IMG/VR virus record: IMGVR_UViG_3300025674_000226
Span: 1-31,122 of that record
Direction: 5' to 3' (one strand)
DNA length: 31,122 nt
Source of the DNA: a virus
The notes below the pieces were generated by a model. It did not search any database. It was not told the DNA's origin and saw only the letters and a list, made by a program, of their open reading frames with translations. Every line of letters starts with the position of its first letter. The first letter of the stretch is position 1. A program made the position numbers and the translations under genes. Positions 323-25,253 of the stretch are shown piece by piece.

Positions 323-679
323 TTATGTCACCTTTACTTTTTTATCTTTCCAAAGTTTTTTGACAATATTGCTAATATCAACATTTGTTGGTTTTTCACC
401 AGAAGTTATTTTACCAACTAGTATTTGTATTAAGTGTCTCTTTATTTTTTTATCTTTAACCAATTCTGGGTACTCATTATAGATTTTATCAATAACTCTG
501 TCTATAATCTGTGATTCTCTATCAGCATCCAGAGTTCTTGTTAGTTGATCATCAACGTTGTTACCGGGTGTCGGTCTATAACCAACATTATAGGCAGAAA
601 ATAAAGCAGGTGCACGACCATGAAAATTAGTATAAGGGCCAGTGTAACCTGCTTCATTTAAAATATCTTTTAATTTCAT
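323..679 (-). CDS. Small protein with internal-head-protein-like N-terminus
   Basis: 118 residues, start MKLKDILNEAGYTG. The first nine residues match the M-K-L-x-x-(L/I)-L-x-E pattern shared by a group of genes at 8-11.3 kb, and L-N-E followed by A-G is a textbook site for a T4 gp21-type protease. The rest (HGRAPALFSAYN near residues 20-30, then a charged helical C-terminal half from about residue 45) is not a family I recognise. It lies one base after the protease gene, so it is cotranscribed with it. A packaged internal or core protein that loses its first nine residues is the simplest inference. The body has no recognisable catalytic motif. Confidence 0.75.
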   Translation of the reverse strand: MKLKDILNEAGYTGPYTNFHGRAPALFSAYNVGYRPTPGNNVDDQLTRTLDADRESQIIDRVIDKIYNEYPELVKDKKIKRHLIQILVGKITSGEKPTNVDISNIVKKLWKDKKVKVT

Positions 680-680
680 A

Positions 681-1286
681 TTAAAGTCCTAAAATTTCAT
701 CTAATATATTATCCAATCTCATAATCTTGTTTTGTTTCATTAGTGTTTGATAAGCTGCACTTTCTTGTAAGTGCATATATGCATTGCTTGTAGAGGGGTT
801 ACTAACCATATCATAACATACTAAGTTAAAATCATCTTCAACAATATCATAACCATCACTATTTCTTCTTACACTACCAAGACCTCTTGATGAAATTCCT
901 AATTTTATTCTTCTTTCAACTAACTTGCCAAGGATCTGTCCTTTTGGTGTATCTAAAACTTCAATTTCTCCAATTAGATTTTCACCATCCCATTCTGTAT
1001 CAGTTACTAAGTGAGATACATTCTCAAGTTGAATGATTGGGCTATCTGGGTGATCTAATTCACCTAAAGCTCTTCTTTCTCTTACTAATTCTTTATACCT
1101 TCTATCTTCTCTTTCTAATATCTGTCTTGGATAAATTCTATTATTAGCGTTTGGTTTTCCAGCTGCTTGAATAATACCCTTCATCTTAACAATACCATCA
1201 CTAGAAGTAGATGGTTTTACATCATCATACTCAAACAACAAAAAAGAATGAAGTAGGTTTGGATCATTTTTAATAATTTCTGTCAT
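681..1286 (-). CDS. 21: Prohead maturation protease (T4 gp21-like)
   Basis: 201 residues, close to T4 gp21 in size. Family hallmarks are visible: NRIYPRQIL (49-57), GELDHP (75-80) with the catalytic-type His79, GISSRGLGS (130-138) with the Ser-Ser nucleophile region, and YDMVSNPS (158-165). Known role: it assembles in the prohead core, then digests the scaffold and trims capsid and internal proteins after L/I-x-E. An L-F-E at residues 17-19 and L-D-E at 195-197 in its own termini could be self-processing sites (inference). The start overlaps the preceding stop as TAATG. Gene order portal, three small genes, protease copies the T4 order 20-67-68-21. Confidence 0.93.
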   Translation of the reverse strand: MTEIIKNDPNLLHSFLLFEYDDVKPSTSSDGIVKMKGIIQAAGKPNANNRIYPRQILEREDRRYKELVRERRALGELDHPDSPIIQLENVSHLVTDTEWDGENLIGEIEVLDTPKGQILGKLVERRIKLGISSRGLGSVRRNSDGYDIVEDDFNLVCYDMVSNPSTSNAYMHLQESAAYQTLMKQNKIMRLDNILDEILGL

Positions 1287-3036: not shown

Positions 3037-4830
3037 TTAATCTTTTGTGACAAAATATATCTTGCCAGTATCAGATAAAGCTTTATTTTTCGTATCTTTT
3101 TTAATATTTTCAACTACTCTATTTGTTTCTTTATCAAATTTCATTATTTCAGTTATAGTTTTATTAAATGAATCTTTGTTATTTTTTCTTCTTTTCTTAT
3201 CCTTTTGTAAAACCAAATCTAAAGTTGCTGCTGTTTCTGGATCATTGATTGATGTTTCAAATTTTCTCTCAAAAGAATCAAATTTAGGATAACCCTCTAA
3301 CTCATCAGTTCCAATTGGATCATAAGGTGTAACATTTTTAAATGACGAATACCCCTTACTTTCCTCTTTATCTGAGTTTTCGCCGTCTTGGGTTTCACTT
3401 TCCGCTGAAGGCGTTTGTTCTATGGGTGCAGCAGTTGGTTCTTCTTGTGCTCCCATCTTAATTTGTTCTATAGTAAAATCATCAGAAGCTTCTTTTGTTC
3501 TCTGAATTTTTATTTGAGCCATTTCTTCATTAGTAAGTTGCAATATGTTCTTTTGGACATAATATTTTGATACTAATGGTGATTCTGTCATCTGTGTAGC
3601 TATATTAAATCTTTTATCAATCAAATCAAGATTCATCATCTCTGTAACTGATGAGGGATTAGCTAACTTCAAATCAAAAGAATATATATCTGATTCATCA
3701 TAACCTCTAAGATATAAATGAATCAAACCAATCTTGGCTAACTCACTAACAACAATTTTTTGTATTCTCTGAATTGTGCGAGCAAACTTAATATCTTCCT
3801 GTGCTAATGTACCTTTACCAGCTAAATCTTCTTCAGCTGTAAGATATGATTTGGGAACACCTAATGATATAAAAAGTTTATTTTGTAAATATTGAATATC
3901 TTCAATAGCAGCTGCGTTTTCACCACCGGGAAGTGTTTCAATCTTACTACCTCTATCTCCACGAACTGGAATAAAGAAATCTTCCAATATAGACTCTGGA
4001 TTGAATCTCATATCTTGATTACCAGTATCTTTATTTACTAATGGAGTTCTTTTTAGTTTATCTCTTGCTTGCATTAAGTATGAATCAACTTGAGCTGGTG
4101 GGATATTGCCTACATCTACATAGAATACTCTACGTTCTGGTGCTCTTGTGATTCTATAAATCAACATAGCATCTTCTGCCATAATAAGTTGTTTGTATAC
4201 CTTACGACCAGAGTCCAAAACACTTCTACCATAAGGTAAAAATCTATCATCACCAAGTATTCTCATGTGTGAAACTTGATAATTTTCAAATGATGTATTA
4301 CCTTGTGCTGTCCAATTAAATTTAAGTGAGTTAGGATCATTATTAAACCCTTCTTCTCTTACTATTTCAGAGGTTGGTAAGGCTATAGCACCTAATACAC
4401 CTTCCTTTTCAATCAAATCTAAAAGATTGAAATGATCTCCATATTTAACCATGTTTCTAATCCATGTCCATAAATGAAAATCAATATCTAATCTTTCATA
4501 ATAAAGTTCTTCTAATTCTTCTTTTATTTTTGAATCTTCCGAATATATATCTAAAACCCTACCTTCAACTCCATAAACCATCGAATCATCAGCATATATA
4601 TCTAATGCTCTTGAAACTTCGGGATAATGATCCATTTCATCATAATCTCTATATCTCTCAGCTCTTTCTATTCCGCCACCCAAGCCTTGTTGATATATTG
4701 ATGATGCAGCTTTTTGAAAAGAATCAAATACGTTCTTTTGAGCACGCATTGATGGTCTTTCTGTTGGAACCTTATATTGAGCTGAACCGCCTGTTAAAAT
4801 CTTTCTTAATGTATCAAACTTACTAGCCAT
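3037..4830 (-). CDS. 20: Portal vertex protein (T4 gp20-like)
   Basis: 597 residues. It forms the dodecameric ring at the head vertex through which DNA is pumped and to which the neck attaches. Recognisable gp20 signatures are YPEVSRALDIYADD near residue 70, RAPERRVFYVDVGNIPP around 230-245, LPGGENAAAIEDIQYLQNKL around 300-320, and LAQEDIKFARTIQRIQ around 345-360. The last 130 residues are a low-complexity Glu/Ser/Thr-rich linker followed by a Lys-rich tail, longer than I expect for T4 gp20. A good site, AGAGGTAATAT, precedes the ATG. It lies between the small membrane protein at 4844 and the head-region genes. Confidence 0.95.
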   Translation of the reverse strand: MASKFDTLRKILTGGSAQYKVPTERPSMRAQKNVFDSFQKAASSIYQQGLGGGIERAERYRDYDEMDHYPEVSRALDIYADDSMVYGVEGRVLDIYSEDSKIKEELEELYYERLDIDFHLWTWIRNMVKYGDHFNLLDLIEKEGVLGAIALPTSEIVREEGFNNDPNSLKFNWTAQGNTSFENYQVSHMRILGDDRFLPYGRSVLDSGRKVYKQLIMAEDAMLIYRITRAPERRVFYVDVGNIPPAQVDSYLMQARDKLKRTPLVNKDTGNQDMRFNPESILEDFFIPVRGDRGSKIETLPGGENAAAIEDIQYLQNKLFISLGVPKSYLTAEEDLAGKGTLAQEDIKFARTIQRIQKIVVSELAKIGLIHLYLRGYDESDIYSFDLKLANPSSVTEMMNLDLIDKRFNIATQMTESPLVSKYYVQKNILQLTNEEMAQIKIQRTKEASDDFTIEQIKMGAQEEPTAAPIEQTPSAESETQDGENSDKEESKGYSSFKNVTPYDPIGTDELEGYPKFDSFERKFETSINDPETAATLDLVLQKDKKRRKNNKDSFNKTITEIMKFDKETNRVVENIKKDTKNKALSDTGKIYFVTKD

Positions 4831-5122: not shown

Positions 5123-6772
5123 TTACAATAACCACCTTAAATTCTCAACTTGTCCATTTTCTAATTGCATTTGGTAAGATGAGTTTTCTTTTTGATGTCT
5201 TGAATTTGTTATACCAAACTCATAAGGAACTGGATTAAAAGATAAATTAGATACTAAATGTTCTGTTAAGTCATTCTCTGTATTAGTAAATCTTATTGTT
5301 GTACTCCTTACATACATCCCAATAGCTAATGACATCACCAAATCATCATTATAACCTTCTAATGCCTGTGGTTTACCATTATGAAAGATAAAAGTTTCTA
5401 ATTCTTTCATTGTTCTTTGTGAATGCAATATAAACTCATGTTGTCTTAAATCTTCTTCCAGTCTTGCTAATGCAGCTGGACGGGTTCTTGAAGACATTGT
5501 AAATCCGGGAACTGCATTCTTAGGGGGGTTGTATGGATCATAAAACAACTGGTCTCTTGCATTGTTCTCATGTAATTTAGCTAAATCTTTTATTGTCCAA
5601 TATATATTCTTATATTCCATCTCTACAATCTTCATTACTGTATGGTGTCCCATTGATGCGTTTTCAACAATAATATATGCATTGTTATATTGAACAGCTG
5701 TGTTGTGTAATAAGTGCGCATAAACATCAGTTGCAACCTTACCTTTATACTCAGCCACTTGTTCATAATTTTCAACATCTATAACATGAAAAGCTGAATA
5801 ATCTTCTCCATCACCACGAGCTACATCAGCAGAGATAAGATATTTCTTGTTATAATCTGGATACTTCCATACCCATAAACCTTTATCAACCCATGTTTTT
5901 TCTTGAGGTTCTCTTACAAAAGGGCGAAAACCTTCATCTGATTCTTCTTGTTCTGTTGGATGATTTAAATAATATTCAAGAGCTTTTAATGATATGACAT
6001 TATTACCAGATTGTACAAAGTCGCAATCATGTTCTTGCGCAAAAGCTTGATCACCAATCTTCTTACGTGTTTCCCTTGCCCATTCATCATCATGATCTGG
6101 ATGAACAGACCAGTGTAGTTTTATTGGGTTAAAACCTACTATCTTATTACCTATCTTTTCTGTAACGCCAGCTTCAGCTTCATTATATATCTTGTGAAAC
6201 CAATTACCAACTCCATTAGGTGAAGATAAGGCTATACAATCACCACCAGTTGCTAATGTAGGTTGAGCTGCTATCCATATACTATCCATCTTATTAATAA
6301 AAGCTGCCTCATCGACAATCAATAAACTCAAAGCTTCTGAACGAGCCGCATCTGGAGTAGAAGCTGAAGCTTTTATTTTGGATCCATTATTTAATTCTAA
6401 ACTTTGTTTATTATCGGTAATGAATTCTGCTCTCATCCATTCTGGTATGGCTTCTAAAAACACTCTTACTTTATCAACCATGTTTTGAGCAGTATCTCTT
6501 TTTGTAGCTAATATATATATTTCTTTATTCTTAAAGAAGTTTGACAACCAAGCAGCATAACCAGCTACCAGTGTAGATATACCTAATTGTCTACCCTTAA
6601 GAACTATATTATATGAATTTTGAAGAAATTGTTCTAATGTTTCTTCTTGAAATTCCCACAATTGGAATGGTATAATACCCTTAATAGGGTGTCTAATTCT
6701 ACCATATTCTTTCATAAAATAGTTAGGATCTTTACGACATTTAATATATTCTTCTGTTTGTTGTTTATCCAT
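5123..6772 (-). CDS. 17: Large terminase subunit (T4 gp17-like)
   Basis: 549 residues: ATPase followed by a RNase H-like nuclease. ATPase: the Walker A position is KGRQLGIST (59-67), Walker B LLIVDEAAF (150-158, Asp154/Glu155), coupling motif SSPNG (183-187). Nuclease: ISADVARGDGEDYSA (313-327, Asp316), IVENASMGH (368-376, Glu370) and GYNDDLVMSL (473-482, Asp476/Asp477), giving the expected acidic metal-binding set. The protein docks on the portal, pumps DNA into the head and cuts it. Walker A lacks the usual Lys before Ser/Thr (Ile65 there) and has Lys59 upstream instead. The start overlaps the WYL gene stop as TAATG. Confidence 0.95.
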   Translation of the reverse strand: MDKQQTEEYIKCRKDPNYFMKEYGRIRHPIKGIIPFQLWEFQEETLEQFLQNSYNIVLKGRQLGISTLVAGYAAWLSNFFKNKEIYILATKRDTAQNMVDKVRVFLEAIPEWMRAEFITDNKQSLELNNGSKIKASASTPDAARSEALSLLIVDEAAFINKMDSIWIAAQPTLATGGDCIALSSPNGVGNWFHKIYNEAEAGVTEKIGNKIVGFNPIKLHWSVHPDHDDEWARETRKKIGDQAFAQEHDCDFVQSGNNVISLKALEYYLNHPTEQEESDEGFRPFVREPQEKTWVDKGLWVWKYPDYNKKYLISADVARGDGEDYSAFHVIDVENYEQVAEYKGKVATDVYAHLLHNTAVQYNNAYIIVENASMGHHTVMKIVEMEYKNIYWTIKDLAKLHENNARDQLFYDPYNPPKNAVPGFTMSSRTRPAALARLEEDLRQHEFILHSQRTMKELETFIFHNGKPQALEGYNDDLVMSLAIGMYVRSTTIRFTNTENDLTEHLVSNLSFNPVPYEFGITNSRHQKENSSYQMQLENGQVENLRWLL

Positions 6773-7089
6773 TAAAATACTCTAGGAATAAATTCCCTTC
6801 CTTGTTTTTGAGCTGATAATATGTTTTCTAATAGAAAAGATTTTGTCCCTCTAGATCTACCTGTTCTATCATAAGCATACAAGTATATTTTATCACCTTC
6901 TTTTTTAAATTCATAAGGTTCAACAATACGTTGAATAATTCTATTTGTCTCTATTTTACGATATCTTATATTTACTAATGTTGAGGTAGCTATACTTTCA
7001 ATCAAACTAATATTAGTTCTCTTCCTTGCTAAGTGAGGAGCTTCAGTAACTAAATCAACTACTTCACTTCTTTTTAGAGATTTCGCCAA
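6772..7089 (-). CDS. Standalone WYL-domain protein
   Basis: 105 residues from a TTG at 7089, chosen because AAGGAA lies seven bases upstream and no ATG occurs in the first third. Residues about 42-100 read as a WYL domain: VNIRYRKIETNRIIQRIVEPYEF, then KIYLYAYDRTGRSRGTKSFLLENI. WYL domains are small SH3-like folds that usually bind ligand or nucleic acid in bacterial regulators of the PafBC and CRISPR/defence type. Here there is no DNA-binding domain, only about 40 N-terminal residues. The reading frame overlaps the upstream gene by 26 bases and the terminase start by one, so the three are translated together. Confidence 0.75.
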   Translation of the reverse strand: MAKSLKRSEVVDLVTEAPHLARKRTNISLIESIATSTLVNIRYRKIETNRIIQRIVEPYEFKKEGDKIYLYAYDRTGRSRGTKSFLLENILSAQKQGREFIPRVF

Positions 7090-7669
7090 CGCCTTGTTCC
7101 TTTATTTTATCTACAACATACTCTGGTTGTAAATTATTTTCTATATCTGATGGCTTTAACATTGTTTTTACTTTGATAAGATACTTTAAATCTAAAGCCT
7201 TACCCATATTACCAGCATTACCTAATTCAGCCACAGCTAACTCTTTCATACCCAATATTTTAATATCATTCATAACTAAATTATACTTTAATTCCTTTTC
7301 TTTCTCTTCTTTATTTTTTGAAGTTGCAAAAGGAACGGTTATTATCATCTTATATGTGCGAACTCTATGCGTTGATATATATTCATCACTTAACTTATAC
7401 CTTGCAATAAATTTTTGTGCATCTCTATCATCTGTTATATTCTTTATTTCATTTCTCATCTTCATCAACGTATTTCTATCAAAACCCATTGAACTTAATC
7501 TAGGAAATAATAAACCATATAACTTTTCTGCTTTTTTCTGATTTCCTTGAGAATTAGCGTCCATTATATCATAAACTAGCATCTCTATACTATGAGACTT
7601 TTCTTCTTTTAATATTTTTAACAAATCTCTTTTAACGGTTTCTTTTATTTTTTCATAAGTTAATATCAT
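7064..7669 (-). CDS. Unknown protein upstream of terminase
   Basis: 201 residues, mostly charged helices with a central beta-like stretch (RVRTYKMIITVPFA, about 103-116). No family recognised. It begins with a clear site, AAGGAATAATA, before ATG 7669. The gene overlaps the WYL gene by 26 bases and lies two genes before the large terminase. T4 encodes the small terminase gp16 just upstream of gp17, so this position could hold a packaging factor. I see no gp16-like helix-turn-helix or coiled-coil pattern to support that, so it stays unassigned. Confidence 0.7.
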   Translation of the reverse strand: MILTYEKIKETVKRDLLKILKEEKSHSIEMLVYDIMDANSQGNQKKAEKLYGLLFPRLSSMGFDRNTLMKMRNEIKNITDDRDAQKFIARYKLSDEYISTHRVRTYKMIITVPFATSKNKEEKEKELKYNLVMNDIKILGMKELAVAELGNAGNMGKALDLKYLIKVKTMLKPSDIENNLQPEYVVDKIKEQGVGEISKKK

Positions 7670-8079: not shown

Positions 8080-8313
8080 TTATTTCTTACCTCTATTCTT
8101 GTATTTAGTCCAAGCAATCTGATATGGAACAGGTGAATCATCACCAAACTTATCCTTCAAATGTTTTACCATACGCTCATAGTTAGCACCGGGAGGAGCT
8201 ACTTCTTCTACATCAGTTTCCAACTCATATTCACCAATGAGATCTCTAACCATAGCCTCCATACTTTTCTTATCTTTTTCTCTCTTACCTTCTAATAAAC
8301 TTGAGAGTTTCAT
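8080..8313 (-). CDS. Putative internal head protein, PPGANYERMVKH domain
   Basis: 77 residues from ATG 8313 (MKLSSLLEGKREK). A longer frame reaches 8376, but GGAGATATAAT sits just before 8313 and the N-terminus then matches the sister genes. L-L-E followed by G fits a gp21-type cleavage site after residue 8. Residues 40-75 (PPGANYERMVKHLKDKFGD...PYQIAWTKYKNRGKK) are a short basic module I know from small marine-phage proteins of unknown function. Predicted mature protein: a basic polypeptide of about 69 residues, packaged with the DNA (inference). The first 18 bases around the start are identical to those of the gene at 9386. Confidence 0.8.
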   Translation of the reverse strand: MKLSSLLEGKREKDKKSMEAMVRDLIGEYELETDVEEVAPPGANYERMVKHLKDKFGDDSPVPYQIAWTKYKNRGKK

Positions 8314-8314
8314 A

Positions 8315-8626
8315 TTATATCTCCATTTTGTCACAGCCACAGTTCTTACAGCCACAAACTTCATCAATCTCAACAACTAATGTTGTATCACCTTTTATAA
8401 CTCTATGGTAATGATTTTTAGGTATAAAATAAACCTCACCTTCAACTAAATCAATAGGTAATTCATCATCCATTTGGAGCTTCCAGTTACCAGACTCTTT
8501 TACTGTGATATACCTATCCTTCTTATCTCTATGCCATACCAAATCATCAATATCTACATCTGATGCAAATTCTCTTATCAGTGTTTTATTAATTCTCTTC
8601 TCTGTATAAGGTTTATCTACCACCAC
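8315..8626 (-). CDS. Cupin-fold protein with Cys-rich tail
   Basis: 103 residues. Residues about 27-92 read as a single cupin barrel: DLVWHRDKKDRYITV, WKLQMDDELPIDLVEGEVYFIPK, then NHYHRVIKGDTTLVVEI. The His residues of WHRD and NHYHR are plausible metal ligands. The last dozen residues are CGCKNCGCDK, a possible extra metal site. Enzyme activity cannot be assigned; small phage cupins are usually uncharacterised. The start is GTG; GTG 8626 and GTG 8623 are both possible. GGAGG is three bases before the first and six before the second, so 8623 is slightly favoured. It overlaps the upstream gene by ten bases. Confidence 0.75.
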   Translation of the reverse strand: MVVDKPYTEKRINKTLIREFASDVDIDDLVWHRDKKDRYITVKESGNWKLQMDDELPIDLVEGEVYFIPKNHYHRVIKGDTTLVVEIDEVCGCKNCGCDKMEI

Positions 8627-9183
8627 TTACCTCCACCAGATAATCCTAATGATTTGGCATAGCGGGGGAGCCTGCACGCCCAATATGAAGCTTTCGTTTT
8701 ATCCTTCGCTTGTTCACAGTTGTGTCTTGAGGCGAAAGCCGCCTTTGCCTTTGGATCTTTCAGCTTTACGGATAATGAAGCTCCACCACTCTTAGCTCCA
8801 AAACTTACTTTTTTCACATTTCCAGTCTTGGGGTTCTTTACATAAACATAAAATTTTTTACTACCACCTCTTTTGGGTTTGCCTAACTGAACTTTCTTAC
8901 CTTGATATTCAGCCTCAACCATTACTGGGCAATCAAGAGGTACTTTCTCACCTTCAAATTCGCCAAATTGACCAATATCTGTTGTTTCTAATAACTCAAT
9001 ATCCATCTCATCAATATTATCTAACTTACCTTCCTTATATAACCTTCTTGCTTCGTTATATAATGCAAAATAGTTATCACTATACATTCTAAAAATATTC
9101 TCAGATAATAATATGTTATTATCAACGTGATAATCAATTGCTTCTGTTATTTTTTGTTCCTGTAATATGTTAGTTAACTTCAT
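8617..9183 (-). CDS. Putative internal head protein with RHNCEQ...YWACR domain
   Basis: 188 residues, start MKLTNILQEQKITEA. L-Q-E (7-9) is a candidate protease site. Residues about 90-188 contain a highly patterned domain: GKPKRGGSKKFYVYVKNP, KVSFGAKSGG, ASRHNCEQAKDKTKASYWAC, and the end SGGGKWW. I recognise this combination from uncharacterised proteins that are widespread in marine phages and usually sit near structural genes. The two Cys and one His (RHNC...YWAC) may bind metal. The start overlaps the preceding stop as TAATG, after AAGGAA. Confidence 0.8.
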   Translation of the reverse strand: MKLTNILQEQKITEAIDYHVDNNILLSENIFRMYSDNYFALYNEARRLYKEGKLDNIDEMDIELLETTDIGQFGEFEGEKVPLDCPVMVEAEYQGKKVQLGKPKRGGSKKFYVYVKNPKTGNVKKVSFGAKSGGASLSVKLKDPKAKAAFASRHNCEQAKDKTKASYWACRLPRYAKSLGLSGGGKWW

Positions 9184-9386
9184 TATTCCTTATCCCCATC
9201 CATATAGTTGAAAACTGATTGTAAATAATCTAAAGCTTTTGTAATCTTTGATTGTGTCCATGCAGGTAGTTCATCATTATTTTCAATCTTGTTTAATAAC
9301 ATTGATGCGATCTTAGCTGTTCTTTTTAGTTCACTTCTTGCCATTGAACCTTCATCGTCACCTTCTAGTAAGTTAGTTAGTTTCAT
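9183..9386 (-). CDS. Small helical putative internal head protein
   Basis: 67 residues, start MKLTNLLEGDDEGSMARSEL; L-L-E followed by G is the predicted cleavage point after residue 8. The body (MARSELKRTAKIASMLLNKI then DELPAWTQSKITKALDYLQS) is a compact helical domain that I have seen repeatedly as a stand-alone or C-terminal module in marine T4-like phages, without known function. The ribosome site and first codons share an exact 18-base match with the gene starting at 8313. Both neighbours are similar N-terminus genes, so the group is likely expressed together late in infection. Confidence 0.8.
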   Translation of the reverse strand: MKLTNLLEGDDEGSMARSELKRTAKIASMLLNKIENNDELPAWTQSKITKALDYLQSVFNYMDGDKE

Positions 9387-9395
9387 ATTATATCT

Positions 9396-9701
9396 CTATT
9401 TCTGCATTATGGCTTTTTTCTTAGGTCTGCCCTTATCACCATAGTGCTTACGTTTTCTTGCTACAGCGTTCTTTTTTTCCTTCTTAGACATTTTAGCGGC
9501 AACTGCTGCTTTTCTACACTTAGGATAAGCTCTTTGACCACCCTTACGTGACTTACTGTCTGCAGATGCACCACAGGGAGGATGTTTACCAGACTTATCT
9601 TTACGACTAATATCTACCCACTTTTCTTTCATCCATCTACCTATGCCACTATCTGCATAAGTTTTTTCATCTATCTGTGCTAAAACTTCACTTAGTTTCA
9701 T
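9396..9701 (-). CDS. Putative internal head protein, DUF5872-like basic domain
   Basis: 101 residues, start MKLSEVLAQIDEKTYADSG. Its N-terminus is a looser member of the shared motif, with I-D-E at 10-12 as the closest protease-like site. Residues 24-95 read KEKWVDISRKDKSGKHPPCG, RAYPKCRKAAVAAKMSKKEK and an Arg/Lys-rich end. This looks like the small basic domain I recall as DUF5872, common in phages; the name is from memory. Two Cys (PPCG, PKCR) are conserved in that domain. The start codon lies within the last 14 bases of the GIY-YIG gene, so the endonuclease gene abuts it. Confidence 0.78.
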   Translation of the reverse strand: MKLSEVLAQIDEKTYADSGIGRWMKEKWVDISRKDKSGKHPPCGASADSKSRKGGQRAYPKCRKAAVAAKMSKKEKKNAVARKRKHYGDKGRPKKKAIMQK

Positions 9702-10311
9702 CTATCTTCTCTATCGCTTTTATTTTTCCCTTTGGTGTGTCTCTAACAACTCTTAGACCTTCACTACGAAATCTCTTCCACAATGTCTCCACACTCAAAC
9801 CAACAACCTTAGAAGCTTTATTTACACTACCACAAGACAAAACTGCCTCCACTATTGTTTCTGTTTCTACACCAGACCACGCTGGGTTTCCTTTGCCCTT
9901 ATGTAGAGCAGACATTGTTTTTCTCTGGCTACTTGGTTGTGGTTTGTTTTTGTATGTGCCAGCTTTTCCTGTATTCCAAGGTATGTTTCCCTTTTTCCAA
10001 GCATTCAAACCGCCCCTATCACCTTGCCCACCAATCTGTATGTTATAGTATGGATTTTTCTTAGCAATCCATTCTATCTCTTTCTGGTATGCTTCTTCTT
10101 CGGTCAAACCACCTTCTAAAATCTCACAGGTAAAACTTTCTTTTCCATACTTGTTTACCGCATTTATTATTGCAGTGCCTTCACCAACATAACCTGCTTG
10201 ATGTTTTAGTAAATGTGTCTTACCAATATAGTTGTGACTTTCCTTACCAACCAGTTTGGTTTCGTATACTAAATAAGTATCTTTATCTTTACAAGATGGA
10301 TAAGTTGCCAT
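9688..10311 (-). CDS. GIY-YIG homing endonuclease (Seg-like)
   Basis: 207 residues. The nuclease domain spans about 12-97: TYLVYETKLVG...HNYIGKT (GIY-YIG strands), YVGEGTAIINAVNKYGKESF (42-60), and the acidic helix with EEEAYQKEIEWI before YYNIQIGGQGD. It resembles the YIGxH...YLGSG subgroup of free-standing phage endonucleases. A helix-turn-helix-like segment near the C-terminus (SVNKASKVVGLSVETLWKRF) would bind DNA. Known role: it cuts a relative lacking the gene and spreads by repair. It breaks up a run of small head-protein genes, and its last 14 bases overlap the next start. It appears less A+T-rich than its neighbours by eye, as expected for a transferred gene. Confidence 0.88.
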   Translation of the reverse strand: MATYPSCKDKDTYLVYETKLVGKESHNYIGKTHLLKHQAGYVGEGTAIINAVNKYGKESFTCEILEGGLTEEEAYQKEIEWIAKKNPYYNIQIGGQGDRGGLNAWKKGNIPWNTGKAGTYKNKPQPSSQRKTMSALHKGKGNPAWSGVETETIVEAVLSCGSVNKASKVVGLSVETLWKRFRSEGLRVVRDTPKGKIKAIEKIDETK

Positions 10312-10314
10312 AGT

Positions 10315-10491
10315 CTATCTCTTACTTACTTCATTAAGATTTAGTTCTTGTTCTTCTTTCTTTTCTTCTTTGTTTTTCTTGGAAACTTTATCAGCTAACT
10401 TATCTACCACTGGTGATGGAACACCAACTTGTTTCAACGCAGCTTTTGCAGCCTCACCAGCTACTTTCTTTGCAATCTTCTTGATATTCAT
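10315..10491 (-). CDS. Very small Lys/Glu-rich protein
   Basis: 58 residues, start MNIKKIAKKVAGEAAKAALK, end NEVSKR. AAAGGG lies seven bases before ATG 10491 and the start overlaps the preceding stop as TAATG, so it is very likely translated. Residues 1-20 make an amphipathic basic helix; the rest is Lys/Glu-rich. There is no MKL-type targeting peptide, but size, charge and position in the run of candidate internal head proteins suggest it may belong to the same packaged set. No family recognised. Confidence 0.65.
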   Translation of the reverse strand: MNIKKIAKKVAGEAAKAALKQVGVPSPVVDKLADKVSKKNKEEKKEEQELNLNEVSKR

Positions 10492-10721
10492 TATTTACCC
10501 TTTGTTTTCCAAGTGCCACCTTTAGATTTATAATACTTTGCAGCCCAAGCGTTTGCATATGCTGATGGATATACCTTGAACTTATTCTTAGCGGCTCTTA
10601 TAGCAGCAGCCCACTTCTTTTTATCATTAGGTACATTCTTTTCAGTAAAAAGTTTTACTTCACGCATGTCCTTACGAGTAATATTAGGGTTTCTACCTTC
10701 TAATAAATCAGACAACTTCAT
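10491..10721 (-). CDS. Putative internal head protein, VYPSAYANAWA domain
   Basis: 76 residues, start MKLSDLLEGRNPN, with L-L-E followed by G as the predicted processing site. Residues 32-72 (NDKKKWAAAIRAAKNKFK, VYPSAYANAWAAKYYKSKGG) form a small basic domain that recurs in many marine phages with no assigned function. Its coding start TTATTAGAAGGTA is shared at the DNA level with the gene at 8313. The mature product would be strongly basic, which suits binding of packaged DNA (inference). Start and stop codons interlock with both neighbours as TAATG. Confidence 0.8.
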   Translation of the reverse strand: MKLSDLLEGRNPNITRKDMREVKLFTEKNVPNDKKKWAAAIRAAKNKFKVYPSAYANAWAAKYYKSKGGTWKTKGK

Positions 10722-10963
10722 TACTTATCACCGCAGGTGCATTCGCCTTCATTCATACCACAAGCTCTACAACAACCTTCTTCTAGTCCTTCTTCTTCAT
10801 CACTTGTATGTGTATCATCCATAGCGTCAAAAAACTTCTTCTTTTCTTCACCACTAAGATCTTCTATAGAATCTACACCATGCTTAGCTAACATAGCCTT
10901 AAACTTTTTCTGATATTCTGCCTTATCACCTTTAGCTTCTTTTAATAAATCTGTTAGTTTCAT
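10721..10963 (-). CDS. Putative internal head protein with C-terminal Cys cluster
   Basis: 80 residues, start MKLTDLLKEAKGDK; L-K-E followed by A is the predicted site. Residues 14-48 (EYQKKFKAMLAKHGVDSIED, then SGEEKKKFFDAMD) are a small helical module that I know from several marine-phage proteins. The end, GCCRACGMNEGECTCGDK, has five Cys in CC-x2-C and C-x-C spacing and could hold a zinc ion. AGAGGAAATAAC precedes the ATG. It is the second gene after the terminator, in the block of head-region genes. Confidence 0.8.
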   Translation of the reverse strand: MKLTDLLKEAKGDKAEYQKKFKAMLAKHGVDSIEDLSGEEKKKFFDAMDDTHTSDEEEGLEEGCCRACGMNEGECTCGDK

Positions 10964-10964
10964 G

Positions 10965-11270
10965 TTATTTCCTCTTATTTTTACAGCCTTTATTATATCC
11001 TTTTAACCTACTCTTCTCTTTACGCCCTTTATTTTTACTAGATTTCTCAAAACCAGCTATCTTACCATTCTTATGGCTTGCATCCTTACCATCACCATTA
11101 CCATAAGTACCTTTTTCACGATTATACTTATTTAACTCAGAACGATATTTTATTCTCTCTGGAGAGTTATTATACTTCTTCTCCTTAGAATAATCCCTAC
11201 CTTGAGCCTTACCCCACTTACGTTCTTCTATTTGTGATAATATTTCATCTAGTAATTCACGCAAATTCAT
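10965..11270 (-). CDS. Putative internal head protein with HNH-like basic domain
   Basis: 101 residues from ATG 11270 (MNLRELLDEILSQIEERKWG). A longer frame to 11354 would begin inside the terminator hairpin, so the internal ATG with GGAG nine bases upstream is chosen. The N-terminus has L-D-E at 7-9. Residues 20-95 (KAQGRDYSKEKKYNNSPERI, LNKYNREKGTYGNGDGKDAS, HKNGKIAGFEKSSKNKGR) resemble a family of small phage proteins related to HNH nucleases. The D-x-x-H of GDGKDASHK remains, but the full HNH catalytic set is not visible, so a binding rather than cutting role is likely. Confidence 0.78.
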   Translation of the reverse strand: MNLRELLDEILSQIEERKWGKAQGRDYSKEKKYNNSPERIKYRSELNKYNREKGTYGNGDGKDASHKNGKIAGFEKSSKNKGRKEKSRLKGYNKGCKNKRK

Positions 11271-11692: not shown

Positions 11693-11975
11693 TGGTGGAC
11701 CAGATGGGAGTCGAACCCATGTCCTGTCTATCTTCATTATTAACCGATATACATGGTTAGTTACTACTCACATAATCGACAATGCTTCTTTTATAATGAC
11801 ACTCTTATGTAACTATCAAAAGAATAAATTTTGTTACTGAGTGGTTTAGCTCTAAGCGGCTAAACGATATTCCTGAGTTTCGTCAGTTATTGTTTTGATA
11901 CTTTGATAACGGAGCCAAGCATCTTCTCCGCCATGCGTCTAATAGATCCAATACCAGTCGATGCCTTTCTGGCCC
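11693..11975 (-). ncRNA. ssrA: tmRNA (ssrA), phage-encoded
   Basis: The 3' end on the minus strand reads GGACATGGGTTCGACTCCCA, then TCTGGTCCACCA: a five-pair T arm with TTCGACT loop, an acceptor strand and an encoded CCA. The 5' end GGGCCAG (from 11975) pairs over seven bases with CTGGTCC, including the G-U at the third pair typical of tmRNA. ATCGACTGG follows, like the D-loop region of bacterial tmRNA. An internal reading frame (11852-11887) encodes TDETQEYRLAA then TAG, ending in the LAA degradation signal; the resume codon could be a codon or two earlier. CTTAGAGC after it also matches bacterial tmRNA. It starts right after the stop codon of the zinc-ribbon gene, so it must be cut from a longer transcript. 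Confidence 0.93.
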
Positions 11976-12143: not shown

Positions 12144-12485
12144 TTATTTTTTATAAAGTCCCATAGCTCTACCTTTTTTAGTGGTTTTAACAGCCTTTTT
12201 TGTAATTCTTCTTTGTTTACCTTTACGTGATATGGCTGATCTTCTACCTCTTCTTTTAGCGGCAGCTTTAGATATTTTTCTTAAAGATAAAGGAAGTGCT
12301 TTCTTTCTCTTTCTAACTATCTTCAAAGAACCCTTAATTCTTCTAGCTCTTTTCTTCATAGGACCAAAAAGAATTTTAGCGTCGCCTTCACCTTCAAAAA
12401 GCATTTCGTTTAATACTTCTATATATATCTCTTCTACTAAATCTTCTAATTCTTTTTCAGAAATCACTTCTACATTAGAATCCAA
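12144..12485 (-). CDS. Acidic leader plus very basic core: probable packaged DNA-binding protein
   Basis: 113 residues from a TTG at 12485, supported by GGAG about seven bases upstream and no nearby ATG. Residues 1-35 are acidic (about ten Glu/Asp) and end with NEMLFEGEGDA; L-F-E followed by G is a gp21-type cleavage site. Residues 43-113 are nearly all Lys/Arg/Ser/Ala (MKKRARRIKG...RRGRRSAISRKGKQRRITKK). The design fits a protein whose acidic propeptide is removed in the prohead to release a histone-like core (inference). It overlaps no neighbour but its ribosome site includes the stop of the upstream gene. Confidence 0.75.
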   Translation of the reverse strand: MDSNVEVISEKELEDLVEEIYIEVLNEMLFEGEGDAKILFGPMKKRARRIKGSLKIVRKRKKALPLSLRKISKAAAKRRGRRSAISRKGKQRRITKKAVKTTKKGRAMGLYKK

Positions 12486-22212: not shown

Positions 22213-23268
22213 TCATACTATAGTATAATTCATAATAAGAAGTTCTTCACCTACACCTTGATCAACACCTTCTTTTGCACCTGCAGGTTTCACAAACTCT
22301 CTTTTTTCCCAAACAAAATCATTCTTTGGATACATCTCACTCAACTCTGGAAAATCATAGTAAGATAATGAAAACTTACCAGATATACCATGAAGAGAAT
22401 CTCTCAATTGATAATGTTGTTCTTTTCCAAACTCATGTAAACTATAGTAAGACTCAGTATTCCAATAAGGAGGGTCAACGTAGAAATATGTTGTGGGTGA
22501 ATCATACTTTGCTATTACCTCCTCAAATGACATATTCTCGCAAGTATCAATCTTCTTCAACTTGGGAACAAACTTATCACTAGTTAGTCTGTTTGTAAAT
22601 GCAGTAAACTTTGAACCATACATACCCTTGTAATCTTGAAACTCTGCATCAACAGGATCTACACCGCTAAATGATGATGCAAGTATATACGCATACTTCA
22701 TAGCTATTGCTTGATCCTTCTTACCTGCGGCTATCTTTTTTCTAATCTTATCACGAGCCTGTTCTTGTTTATCTGCTGTTCTCAATCTAAGTTGACTTAC
22801 ACAATAGTTTATTTCATTTAGAATATCTTTCTCTATCTTATCCAGTGATGAATGACCACCTTCGGCATGATGAATAAACTTAGCAATCTTCAATCTGGCA
22901 ACTTTATCCGTAAGAAACTTCTTCAACGCATTACGACCGAACAACTCCTTCTTACATTGATAAAAGAAATCATTACATTCCTTACTTAATTCTGGTTGTC
23001 CTTTAGTTTGAACTGGTGGGTTCTTACTCTCAATAAACTTCATAAACTTCTTTGGTTCTGATGCACAACGAAATAGGTTAACCATATAAGGGTTGAAATC
23101 ATTGTATATAACCTTATTCATTCTTTCATGTATATCGGAGTTGACATACACCCAAAACGCACCACCAAATACTTCTACATATGTTTCACTCTCTGGAATG
23201 TAATCACTAATCCATTCCGCCATGCGATTTTTGCCACCTATGTATGAAATTATTATAGCACCCTCCAC
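22213..23268 (-). CDS. dam: D12-class N6-adenine DNA methyltransferase (Dam-like)
   Basis: Up to 351 residues. Motifs: IISYIGGKNRMAEWI (6-20), TYVEVFGGAFWV (29-40, SAM-binding), NDFNPYMVNLF (56-66), TTYFYVDPPYWNTE (259-272, catalytic DPPY) and LSYYDFPE near 300. The size between D12 family motifs is enlarged by a Lys-rich insert around 110-190. It methylates adenine in a short site, probably protecting phage DNA or mimicking host marking. The start is uncertain: GTG 23268 has little ribosome site, while GGAGG is inside the first codons followed only by ATA/ATT; the first ATG would remove the SYIGGK motif. The upstream homing endonuclease overlaps it by 16 bases. Confidence 0.9.
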   Translation of the reverse strand: MEGAIIISYIGGKNRMAEWISDYIPESETYVEVFGGAFWVYVNSDIHERMNKVIYNDFNPYMVNLFRCASEPKKFMKFIESKNPPVQTKGQPELSKECNDFFYQCKKELFGRNALKKFLTDKVARLKIAKFIHHAEGGHSSLDKIEKDILNEINYCVSQLRLRTADKQEQARDKIRKKIAAGKKDQAIAMKYAYILASSFSGVDPVDAEFQDYKGMYGSKFTAFTNRLTSDKFVPKLKKIDTCENMSFEEVIAKYDSPTTYFYVDPPYWNTESYYSLHEFGKEQHYQLRDSLHGISGKFSLSYYDFPELSEMYPKNDFVWEKREFVKPAGAKEGVDQGVGEELLIMNYTIV

Positions 23269-23819
23269 TTTGGAAATCCGTTGGATTTCACACGATATGA
23301 AATAAACTGTCTGCTTTCGCCAATTTGACGAGCAGCCTCTCTTATACTACTGTATATAACACCTTCTATAAAAACTTTTTTCGTATGCGGCATATTTTTT
23401 TTCATCTTTTCTATACTTTCTTTGGAAACCTTTTTACCTTTATGTCTTTTAGAGGTTATTTTTTTTTGTTCTGGGTTATTATCCCACCATTCTTTTTTCT
23501 TTATTGAACATATCTTTCTACTCTCTTCAGAAAGAACTCCACCTTCTCCACCTTCTGTTAGGTTATAACCATTGGGATGCAATGTATTGTGTTCTTTTAT
23601 ATATTTTTTTTCTAATTCACACAAATCATCTGCAACATTGACACACTCTATAACTTCTTTATCAAAGTTTTCCCAACCATATTTATTGATGGCTCTGGAA
23701 ATCAATCTATTATATTTTCTAAAATCTCGTTTATGTTCACCCATTCTCTTTTCATAATCAATAGTTTTTCCAATATATTTCTTTCCATTTATTTTATTTG
23801 TTAAACAATAAACAACCAT
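23253..23819 (-). CDS. GIY-YIG homing endonuclease with NUMOD-type C-terminus
   Basis: 188 residues from ATG 23819 (MVVYCLTNKINGKKYIGKTI), preceded by GGAGAAGTAAG; an ATG-like longer frame to 23852 adds only 11 residues and lacks a site. VYCLTNKINGKKYIGKT (3-19) with Arg25 and the acidic KYGWENFDKEVIE is a complete nuclease domain. SEESRKICSIKKKEWW and RHKGKKVSKESIEKMKK match NUMOD3-like DNA-binding repeats. The final IYSSIREAARQIGESRQFIS is a NUMOD1-like helix-turn-helix. It inserts between the conserved protein at 23975 and dam. Confidence 0.88.
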   Translation of the reverse strand: MVVYCLTNKINGKKYIGKTIDYEKRMGEHKRDFRKYNRLISRAINKYGWENFDKEVIECVNVADDLCELEKKYIKEHNTLHPNGYNLTEGGEGGVLSEESRKICSIKKKEWWDNNPEQKKITSKRHKGKKVSKESIEKMKKNMPHTKKVFIEGVIYSSIREAARQIGESRQFISYRVKSNGFPKWRVL

Positions 23820-23840
23820 CTTACTTCTCCATAAACAAAA

Positions 23841-23908
23841 ACGGGCTATCAAAAGAGTTTGCGAAGAATGAACAATTATATGTGTTATTCACTCTCTTAA
23901 TAGCCCGT
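23841..23908 (-). other. Long imperfect hairpin in a gene-free gap
   Basis: ACGGGCTAT (23841-23849) pairs exactly with ATAGCCCGT (23900-23908). Inside, AAGAG (23853-23857) pairs with CTCTT (23894-23898), and GAATGAAC can pair with GTTATTC with one bulge. On the minus-strand RNA the distal arm is followed by TTTTTG, so it may act as a large-loop terminator or as a leader structure before the endonuclease ribosome site. The rest of the gap 23820-23974 (155 bases) holds no gene beyond an 11-codon ORF. Confidence 0.55.
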
Positions 23909-24471: not shown

Positions 24472-24631
24472 TATTATTTTTGCTAGATTTGTTTCTAAAT
24501 ATTGCAGCTATTTTGGAAGGTTTTTCTACTAATTGTTTTTTCTTATATGACATATTGTCATTGCTTTTTGTAGCATTATAATATGCTAGTGCATATTGTG
24601 CATAATAATAACTATTTGTTTCAATCAACAT
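24455..24631 (-). CDS. Tiny Tyr/Asn/Lys-rich ORF filling a gap
   Basis: 58 residues (start MLIETNSYYYAQYALAYYNA, end NNIDLLV) with a basic middle, KKKQLVEKPSKIAAIFRNKS. Its ATG lies inside the last codons of the phosphatase gene (11-base overlap), so it may be translated by coupling; AAGGAG is 17 bases away, too far to act alone. It exactly occupies a stretch without another gene. Support is context only; no family recognised. Confidence 0.5.
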   Translation of the reverse strand: MLIETNSYYYAQYALAYYNATKSNDNMSYKKKQLVEKPSKIAAIFRNKSSKNNIDLLV

Positions 24632-25253
24632 TTTTATTCTTTATATACTCCTTGTATAATAACTTACCTATCCTCATTCCTTCTATAGAATCTGATGGGT
24701 AATGTGCTCTAGCTATTTGTCTACTACTTGATATATTCCTACCAACTCTTATAAATTTTGATTTATATTTAGGATAAGCTTTTGATAAAAACATAGAAAT
24801 TAAAATACCTTGTACACTATGTCCAGAAGGATATGAAGGTGTGCTCATACTTTCTAACTCTATAATTTCACCTAAATTAATACCATATAGTTCTGCTAAT
24901 TGTTTTGGTCTAGGTCTATTAAACATATATTTGTAATACAATATAACCTCACTACTTTCTTTAATCAAAAAATTTATTTCATCGTTAGGAAAAGAAAGTT
25001 TAAATCTTAAACATAAATCATAAAAAACTTGTCTTATATCATCATGCATTTCTACAAATTCTCTATCTTGCGGAAGGCCAGATAATGTTTCTAATTCTAA
25101 TTTTGTTTGCAATGATAAATTATTAGGAGGCGGAGTAATAATGTTGTTATTTACAAATTCTCCAAAATAACCATCAACATTGTATCTATTAGTAGTATTA
25201 TCTGTGAATTTTGTATTTTTAATTTTTTTTATTTTTTTATAATCAACAATCAT
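24621..25253 (-). CDS. PAP2-superfamily phosphatase, soluble
   Basis: 210 residues. All three motifs are complete: K-x6-R-P at 108-116 (KYMFNRPRP), PSGH at 142-145 (SYPSGHSVQG) and S-R-x5-H-x3-D at 177-188 (SRQIARAHYPSD), giving the nucleophilic His184, Asp188 and acid His145. Family members hydrolyse phosphate monoesters through a phospho-His. Only weak hydrophobic helices are seen and no signal peptide, so it resembles class A acid phosphatases or haloperoxidases more than lipid phosphatases. The substrate is unknown. GAGGTGGGGTAAA precedes the ATG. No immediate neighbour explains it. Confidence 0.85.
   Translation of the reverse strand: MIVDYKKIKKIKNTKFTDNTTNRYNVDGYFGEFVNNNIITPPPNNLSLQTKLELETLSGLPQDREFVEMHDDIRQVFYDLCLRFKLSFPNDEINFLIKESSEVILYYKYMFNRPRPKQLAELYGINLGEIIELESMSTPSYPSGHSVQGILISMFLSKAYPKYKSKFIRVGRNISSSRQIARAHYPSDSIEGMRIGKLLYKEYIKNKNVD

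Follow-up and report, generated by a model that had tools for sequence, protein, structure and literature searches.

Tagged genes and prohead protease of the window

The IMG/VR virus record IMGVR_UViG_3300025674_000226, a 31,122-bp fragment of a T4-like phage that was analysed over its entire length (hereafter the window, to which all tag counts are restricted), encodes eight proteins that begin with an N-terminal leader of the type MKLxx(L/I)(L/I)xE. An original prediction made from the DNA alone had proposed that this leader tags a run of unrelated small basic proteins for packaging into the phage head, and all eight genes are present at the starts it gave (679, 8313, 9183, 9386, 9701, 10721, 10963 and 11270), with the quoted sequences and, like all main genes of the window, on the minus strand. 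With 54 plausible minus-strand genes as denominator, the pattern M[KN]Lxx[LIV][LI] is found at the N-terminus of eight, where 0.03 (columns of untagged genes) to 0.39 (columns including the hits) are expected (binomial P 2e-17 to 5e-9). In 100,000 column shuffles there were never more than four matches, and at 8,882 internal positions of the proteins this hexamer was counted 6 times. Leucine 3, a leucine, isoleucine or valine at residue 6 and leucine 7 are found in all eight leaders, each at the predicted start; a glutamate follows at residue 8 or 9 in seven of them and at residue 12 in gene 9701, and the first L-x-E site accordingly lies after residue 8-9 in seven and after residue 12 in one. 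The bodies match different PHROGs or none, the four families followed in relatives differ in their conserved residues, and Pfam and PHROGs named no function for any tagged protein. The claim of a shared N-terminal tag on unrelated bodies is thus well founded (8 of 54 genes, P ≤5e-9).

One tagged gene (323..679, 118 amino acids; leader MKLKDILNE/A at 653-679, the slash marking the predicted cut) lies directly downstream of the protease gene described below, and its tag is retained in the relatives L004-L010 and L012-L014. The other seven are clustered, although the run is not unbroken, since the untagged genes 8315-8626, 9688-10311 and 10315-10491 are interposed. Gene 8080..8313 (77 amino acids; leader MKLSSLLE/G, 8290-8313) has a second site, DVEE/VAPPGANY, after residue 37. 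In gene 8617..9183 (188 amino acids, PHROG 7595) the leader MKLTNILQE (9157-9183) is followed by a middle domain and, after residue 90, by the boundary VMVE/AEYQG, beyond which lies the predicted mature body A (RHNC...YWAC, 8617-8913). It is followed by gene 9183..9386 (67 amino acids; MKLTNLLE/G, 9363-9386) and gene 9396..9701 (101 amino acids; MKLSEVLAQIDE/KTY, 9666-9701), whose body B (KWVDI...YPKC) is DUF5872-like with a score below threshold. Gene 10491..10721 (76 amino acids; MKLSDLLE/G, 10698-10721) has a second site, LFTE/KNVPND, after residue 27 in front of body C (VYPSAYANAWAAK, 10491-10640). Gene 10721..10963 encodes 80 amino acids (MKLTDLLKE/A, 10937-10963), and gene 10965..11270 (101 amino acids; MNLRELLDE/I, 11244-11270; PHROG 6437) carries QIEE/RKWG after residue 16, followed by body D (GTYGNGDGKDASH, 10965-11222). 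The net charges of the whole proteins are +1 (8313), +8 (9183), -3 (9386), +21 (9701), +14 (10721), -8 (10963), +16 (11270) and +6 (679), i.e. five range from +6 to +21, one is +1 and two are acidic, because of which the proposal that all bodies are basic is not supported.

At the DNA level, 18 bases are identical at 8306-8323 and 9379-9396 (first-order Markov expectation 0.03 repeated 18-mers per window) and TTATTAGAAGGTA occurs at both 8286-8298 and 10694-10706, as had been noted. A recently copied DNA cassette of ribosome binding site plus leader, which had been deduced from these repeats, did not hold up: the 18-bp identity is real, but long identity is confined to two genes, and codons 2-7 vary among the leader copies (leucine 3 is TTA, CTC, CTA or TTG), and therefore conservation is at the protein level. 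The same data bear on the idea that the likeness reflects a translation-start preference or a recent duplication of ribosome binding site and start only, with no role in the head. The 18 identical bases over two starts and the AAA or AAG second codons of seven tagged genes would agree with it, but the copies differ in synonymous codons, residues 6 and 7 and the glutamate are conserved beyond the reach of initiation effects, and the leader is kept across contigs while linkers diverge. Since the boundary glutamate described below tracks the protease, and the boundary-site data already contradict this idea, we give it almost no credence.

A gp21-type prohead protease had been assigned to 681-1286 (minus strand), and this region indeed matches Peptidase_S77 of Pfam (E 9e-26) and PHROG 207, head maturation protease. 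The genes for the portal (3037-4830) and the large terminase (5123-6772) lie on the same strand. In close IMG/VR relatives, which carry tags on the orthologous genes, the protease is 77-84% identical to that of the window. Its C-terminus, MRLDNILDEILGL, is leader-like and kept as LDEIL in relatives. Propeptides of gp21 have been suggested to target the enzyme to the prohead core (PMC9026906), and the leader-like end might serve the same purpose, a possibility that fits this published idea.

Leaders and body boundaries in related phages

Relatives allow the leader to be followed independently of the bodies. Contig L007 encodes one protein in which the body of window gene 10963 precedes that of gene 10721 (body C) behind a single leader; the second leader is swapped for unrelated sequence, while everything from ITRKxMxEVKLFTEKN onward is conserved. 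In the L007 orthologue of gene 8313, both the MKL start (MKL..L) and the VEE/xxPPGxNY boundary are retained, with a changed and longer linker between them. In L119, the leader directly abuts body A (MKLSDVLE/AEYQGRTV), whereas the window has 90 residues (leader plus middle domain) before the same point. T4-like phages of the cyanophage and pelagiphage types have the same bodies behind other leaders: MKLxxLL is the leader type of the window group and MKxFxxFxxE (T4-type) that of C48C1- and cyanophage-like contigs, and the two were never mixed among the listed S77-bearing T4-like loci. Judged from these comparisons, the leader is shown to be exchangeable and to follow the lineage and protease of the phage rather than the body. 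A third leader type is possible in Flavobacterium phage immuto (L003, L015), in which several small proteins start with MKKSELVKLIKEEL or MKKSQLREIIRKEL.

We followed four body families, A (RHNC..YWSC, gene 9183), B (KWVDI..YPKC, gene 9701), C (VYPSAYANAW, gene 10721) and D (GTYGNGDGKD, gene 11270), by profile scans of IMG/VR, which gave >300 loci. Because boundary regular expressions left many matches unanchored, we relied on counts anchored by hidden Markov models (HMM) at T4-marked loci only; contigs whose retrieved part carries no T4 marker form a mixed group, which we did not take as negatives. For body A, [LIVMF]-x-E stands at position -5 in 37 of 40 T4-marked loci vs 0 of 5 in phages without S77 protease, and for body C at position +2 in 33 of 35 vs 0 of 5. 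In the subset anchored by regular expressions, the P1 residue is glutamate in 31/31 cases for each of these two bodies. For body B the site immediately precedes DLxxWF or is located slightly further upstream, by a few residues (xxE/GKKPSGGL), and for body D the boundary pattern is looser. The density of [LIVMF]-x-E per residue in T4-marked loci is 0.060 in the leaders of body A, as against 0.000 in the body. The motif at the body boundary would therefore be read as a prohead-protease site. Of the proposal that leaders are cut after L-x-E, the site itself is found in every leader, but the cut that matters may often fall at the body boundary, where another [LIVMF]-x-E is present.

Ten podo- and siphoviral records (P-SSP7, S-CBP3, elemoC, S-CRES1, HTVC106P, HTVC027P, Kolga, CRP-2, C72C1 and DSL-LC04) provide the counterpart. 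The homologues of bodies A-D in these records lack leaders of both the MKL and the T4 type, and most of them begin at a methionine or close to one. Peptidase_S77 matched in 0/10 of these records; a query that matches nothing is not by itself proof of absence, but the identical query matched 6/6 myoviral records. The homologue of Pelagibacter phage Kolga, which lacks S77, starts M-AKYQGRTVKLNKP (M-AKYQGR), in agreement with the predicted mature end AEYQGRxVxLxKP. The original prediction had asked for same-body proteins to be compared for the tag: the leader is found on the S77-bearing lineage and is absent from the ten S77-less records, where bodies start without the MKL segment rather than with the segment embedded in a conserved fold. 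Structural modelling gave little further insight, in that an AlphaFold2 model of body A (predicted local distance difference test, pLDDT, 75; predicted template modelling score 0.65) had no PDB match with an E value under 0.8 and in BFVD matched only phage proteins of unknown function, and the model of body B is weak (pLDDT 65).

The boundary data also bear on whether the tagged proteins could be prohead-core (scaffold-type) components like T4 gp67/gp68, docked by the leader and destroyed by the protease with nothing functional retained or injected. The leader does resemble the core-binding protease end LDEIL, two tagged proteins are small and acidic, and the middle domain of the 9183 protein contains several LxE sites. 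Core proteins get cut to pieces, however, whereas bodies A and B are nearly site-free past the boundary (0.000, T4-marked loci); moreover, the same bodies are free proteins in S77-less phages, and gp160 of cyanophage S-CREM2, which has bodies B and C, is present in purified virions (PMC10665884). We regard a scaffold-type role as unlikely.

Polyproteins, virion proteomes and neighbouring genes

In other T4-like phages, 45 open frames contain two or more of bodies A-D. Frames with bodies B, C and A in contigs L214, L224, L240 and L287 (312-370 amino acids) have the joints LFLE/KNCPTD and xxxE/AEYQG, and polyprotein frames reach up to 1203 amino acids (L253), with a frame of 999 in L285. Some joints resemble internal copies of T4-type leaders (LKTFDEFISE/G in L239; MKSFDQFKKSLEE/KNVPTD in L253). 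The window group thus appears to have this modular set in split form, with a separate gene and leader for each body. We consider it reasonably probable that marine T4-like phages load multi-body polyproteins into the head as a unit, where they would be carved at the pre-body glutamate sites into mature proteins of the same extent as those that protease-less phages encode in separate genes, with the window as the split-gene form; the cutting itself is suggested by the joint sites. An HNH_3 match (E 7e-6, over the cut-off) at about residues 325-400 of the 1203-residue frame of L253 points to a possible nuclease origin of at least one payload. Additionally, the window encodes a PAP2 phosphatase at 24621-25253 (E 4e-11), and, judged by eye, a similar domain seems to lie inside a head polyprotein of L285.

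Virion proteomes of cyanophages provide a link to the phage head. We compared the published virion proteome of S-CREM2 (PMC10665884) with all 219 proteins of this phage. A loose leader pattern is found in 15 proteins, six of them virion-detected and non-structural (Fisher P 0.010, known structural proteins removed), and the strict T4-type pattern in seven non-structural proteins, five of which were detected by mass spectrometry (Fisher P 7e-4). These five are a SAM hydrolase (MKDFDSFLEE), gp13 (MKDLHSFLTE), a kinase (VKRFDAFLTE), gp136 (MQTFSMFFSE) and a cytidylyltransferase (MKNFSSFLTE). In the virion-detected gp160, bodies B and C stand behind LSE/A and ISE/G. The presence of the cytidylyltransferase in virions is already known, having been reported for those of S-SM1 (PMC3037559) and S-SZBM1 (PMC9146016). 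Its leader is MRFRQFIIE/A in S-SZBM1, and homologues start MKKFSAFLSE/A in Syn9 and MKSFFQFLSE/A in S-SM2; the homologue of Salmonella phage PHA46 has no leader. Another S-CREM2 virion protein, gp12 (L358 7704-10313), Cas9-like by annotation, has LRFASFMAE/A near its N-terminus, i.e. a T4-type leader behind an extension. We also observed that non-capsid proteins bear a copy of the N-terminal arm of the major capsid protein, just past its cleavage site: S-CREM2 gp160 has GATGFTGAAAPEGPVAGYDPLMG where gp145 (L359) has GADGFTGAAAPGGPNAGFDPVM, and further copies are found in the window at 1286-1750 (AVAGYNAPLSGAP) and in L014 at 1004-1510.

These proteomes also help to judge whether the leader might be an activation or solubility propeptide, with DNA or core binding by the basic bodies driving packaging and the protease merely releasing them. 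This would agree with bodies A-D being leaderless in S77-less phages and with polyproteins that have no long leader and begin MNE/DL. Yet the hydrophobic spacing of the leader is identical to that of the genetically defined T4 targeting residues, the same leader is found on acidic bodies, and unrelated enzymes in cyanophage virions bear T4-type leaders, all of which makes such a function quite improbable.

Two further genes of the window might belong to the tagged set. Gene 12144..12485 (minus strand, TTG start, net charge +22), overlooked in the original prediction, is a probable further member by its sequence pattern only, with a different 31-residue leader ending MLFE/GEG (12393-12485) and a strongly basic body. 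Gene 7064..7669 (minus strand) is a possible member, as its L011 homologue starts MKLKTLITEDD; the case for a tag swap in L011 is less strong than it seemed at first, since the window protein has a tag-like stretch, DLLKILKEE/K, behind 14 extra residues (residues 15-22 on the alignment). Inside the tagged cluster, the protein of 9688-10311 has a GIY-YIG-like start (by eye). As L007 lacks it at the corresponding position, it has the look of a homing endonuclease that was inserted there; the protein of 23253-23852 is of a similar kind. Upstream of the cluster, a phage-encoded transfer-messenger RNA (tmRNA) is found at 11693-11975 (minus strand; Rfam RF00023, 103 bits, E 5e-41, full length), where ARAGORN reported no tmRNA. 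Finally, a scaffold C-terminal motif (RWQKLAGI, DRLTQLAGL; L003 6974-7438 and 20925-22166, L014 3320-3781 and 7221-8114) recurs at the N-terminus of another immuto protein (MKKQILSEQFRRMQKLAGI) and at the C-terminus of an L014 neighbour (DRLERLGI), and is perhaps a second core-docking peptide.

Predicted route into the head and comparison with known systems

Taken together, we consider it very likely that MKLxx(L/I)(L/I)xE is a lineage-specific capsid-targeting propeptide which the protease trims in the head, freeing the bodies inside. The first ten residues of T4 IPIII suffice for packaging, with residues 4 and 7 involved in targeting and 8 and 10 in processing, and T4 gp21 cuts after L/I-x-E (PMC9026906); we verified the IPIII N-terminus as MKTYQEFIAE. 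By comparison with relatives and with T4, we propose that the leader hydrophobics 3, 6 and 7, which have the spacing of Y4, F7 and I8 of IPIII, would bind the prohead core during assembly, so that the core-bound leader would carry each protein into the head. The S77 protease of 681-1286 would then cut the leader after [L/I/V/M/F]-x-E, with a second such cut at the body boundary in proteins that have a linker, and the freed body might stay with the DNA in the head and probably be ejected into the next host. Exchangeability, boundary site, co-occurrence with S77 and the virion proteomes of relatives all favour the cleavable head-targeting leader of the original prediction, while its cassette and its uniformly basic cargo are not supported.

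Several observations weigh against this interpretation. The phage is known only from a 31-kb metagenomic fragment, with scaffold and major capsid protein beyond the window; the region of major capsid cleavage reads QLINEESVT in the relative L014 and QIVSEANVT in immuto. Unlike the internal proteins of T4, two of the tagged proteins are acidic. A conserved [FM]-x-E also lies within body B (WFKEKW), and therefore either [LIVMF]-x-E by itself does not always lead to cutting or phenylalanine and methionine are poor P3 residues. The MNE/DL starts of some T4-like polyproteins, which lack an MKL-type leader, imply that the leader is not the sole way into the head. Furthermore, the strict T4-type pattern was devised after the sequences had been seen, most unknown S-CREM2 proteins detected by mass spectrometry have no leader, two leader-bearers went undetected, and the authors of the proteome say that co-purification is possible (PMC10665884).

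T4-like phages are among the most abundant marine viruses, and for many of their small proteins no role has been assigned. Should the rule prove correct, an [LIVMF]-x-E boundary together with the ten N-terminal residues would reveal head-borne proteins and their mature ends, a location could be assigned to several uncharacterised families, and many long proteins annotated as "hypothetical" or "cytidyltransferase" are predicted to be polyproteins. It would also provide a mechanism for the recurrence of cytidylyltransferase, SAM hydrolase and kinases in cyanophage virion proteomes, an open puzzle. In the open-access literature on capsid targeting in marine phages we found only work on T4 and SPN3US, subscription papers, where earlier notice is possible, being outside the scope of this search.

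We regard the system as a variant of T4 capsid targeting, and probably a widespread one in marine T4-like phages. Like the targeting sequences of T4 IPI, IPII, IPIII and Alt, which are removed by gp21, the leader of the window is N-terminal, comprises about ten residues on unrelated bodies, has hydrophobics at i, i+3 and i+4 and a glutamate at i+5 or i+6, and is accompanied by an S77 protease in the same genome and by L/I-x-E sites. It differs in sequence (MKLxxLLxE), in bodies unrelated to the T4 internal proteins, in its two acidic carriers, in the frequent second site at the body boundary, and in the number of carriers, at least eight clustered upstream of packaging genes vs three internal proteins plus Alt in T4. 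The propeptides of head proteins in the giant phages phiKZ and SPN3US are likewise N-terminal on unrelated head and ejection proteins and cut after glutamate by a gp21 homologue, and SPN3US gp53 and gp54 have 15 identical N-terminal residues in common (PMC5694885), but these propeptides mostly exceed 100 residues and their motif is S/A-x-E. Polyvalent proteins, known from phages and conjugative elements (Iyer et al., 2017, PMC5512222), similarly combine several domains per chain, have been proposed to be packaged and injected, and have been likened to polyproteins; they use embedded peptidase domains, whereas the joints described here fit a separate head protease.

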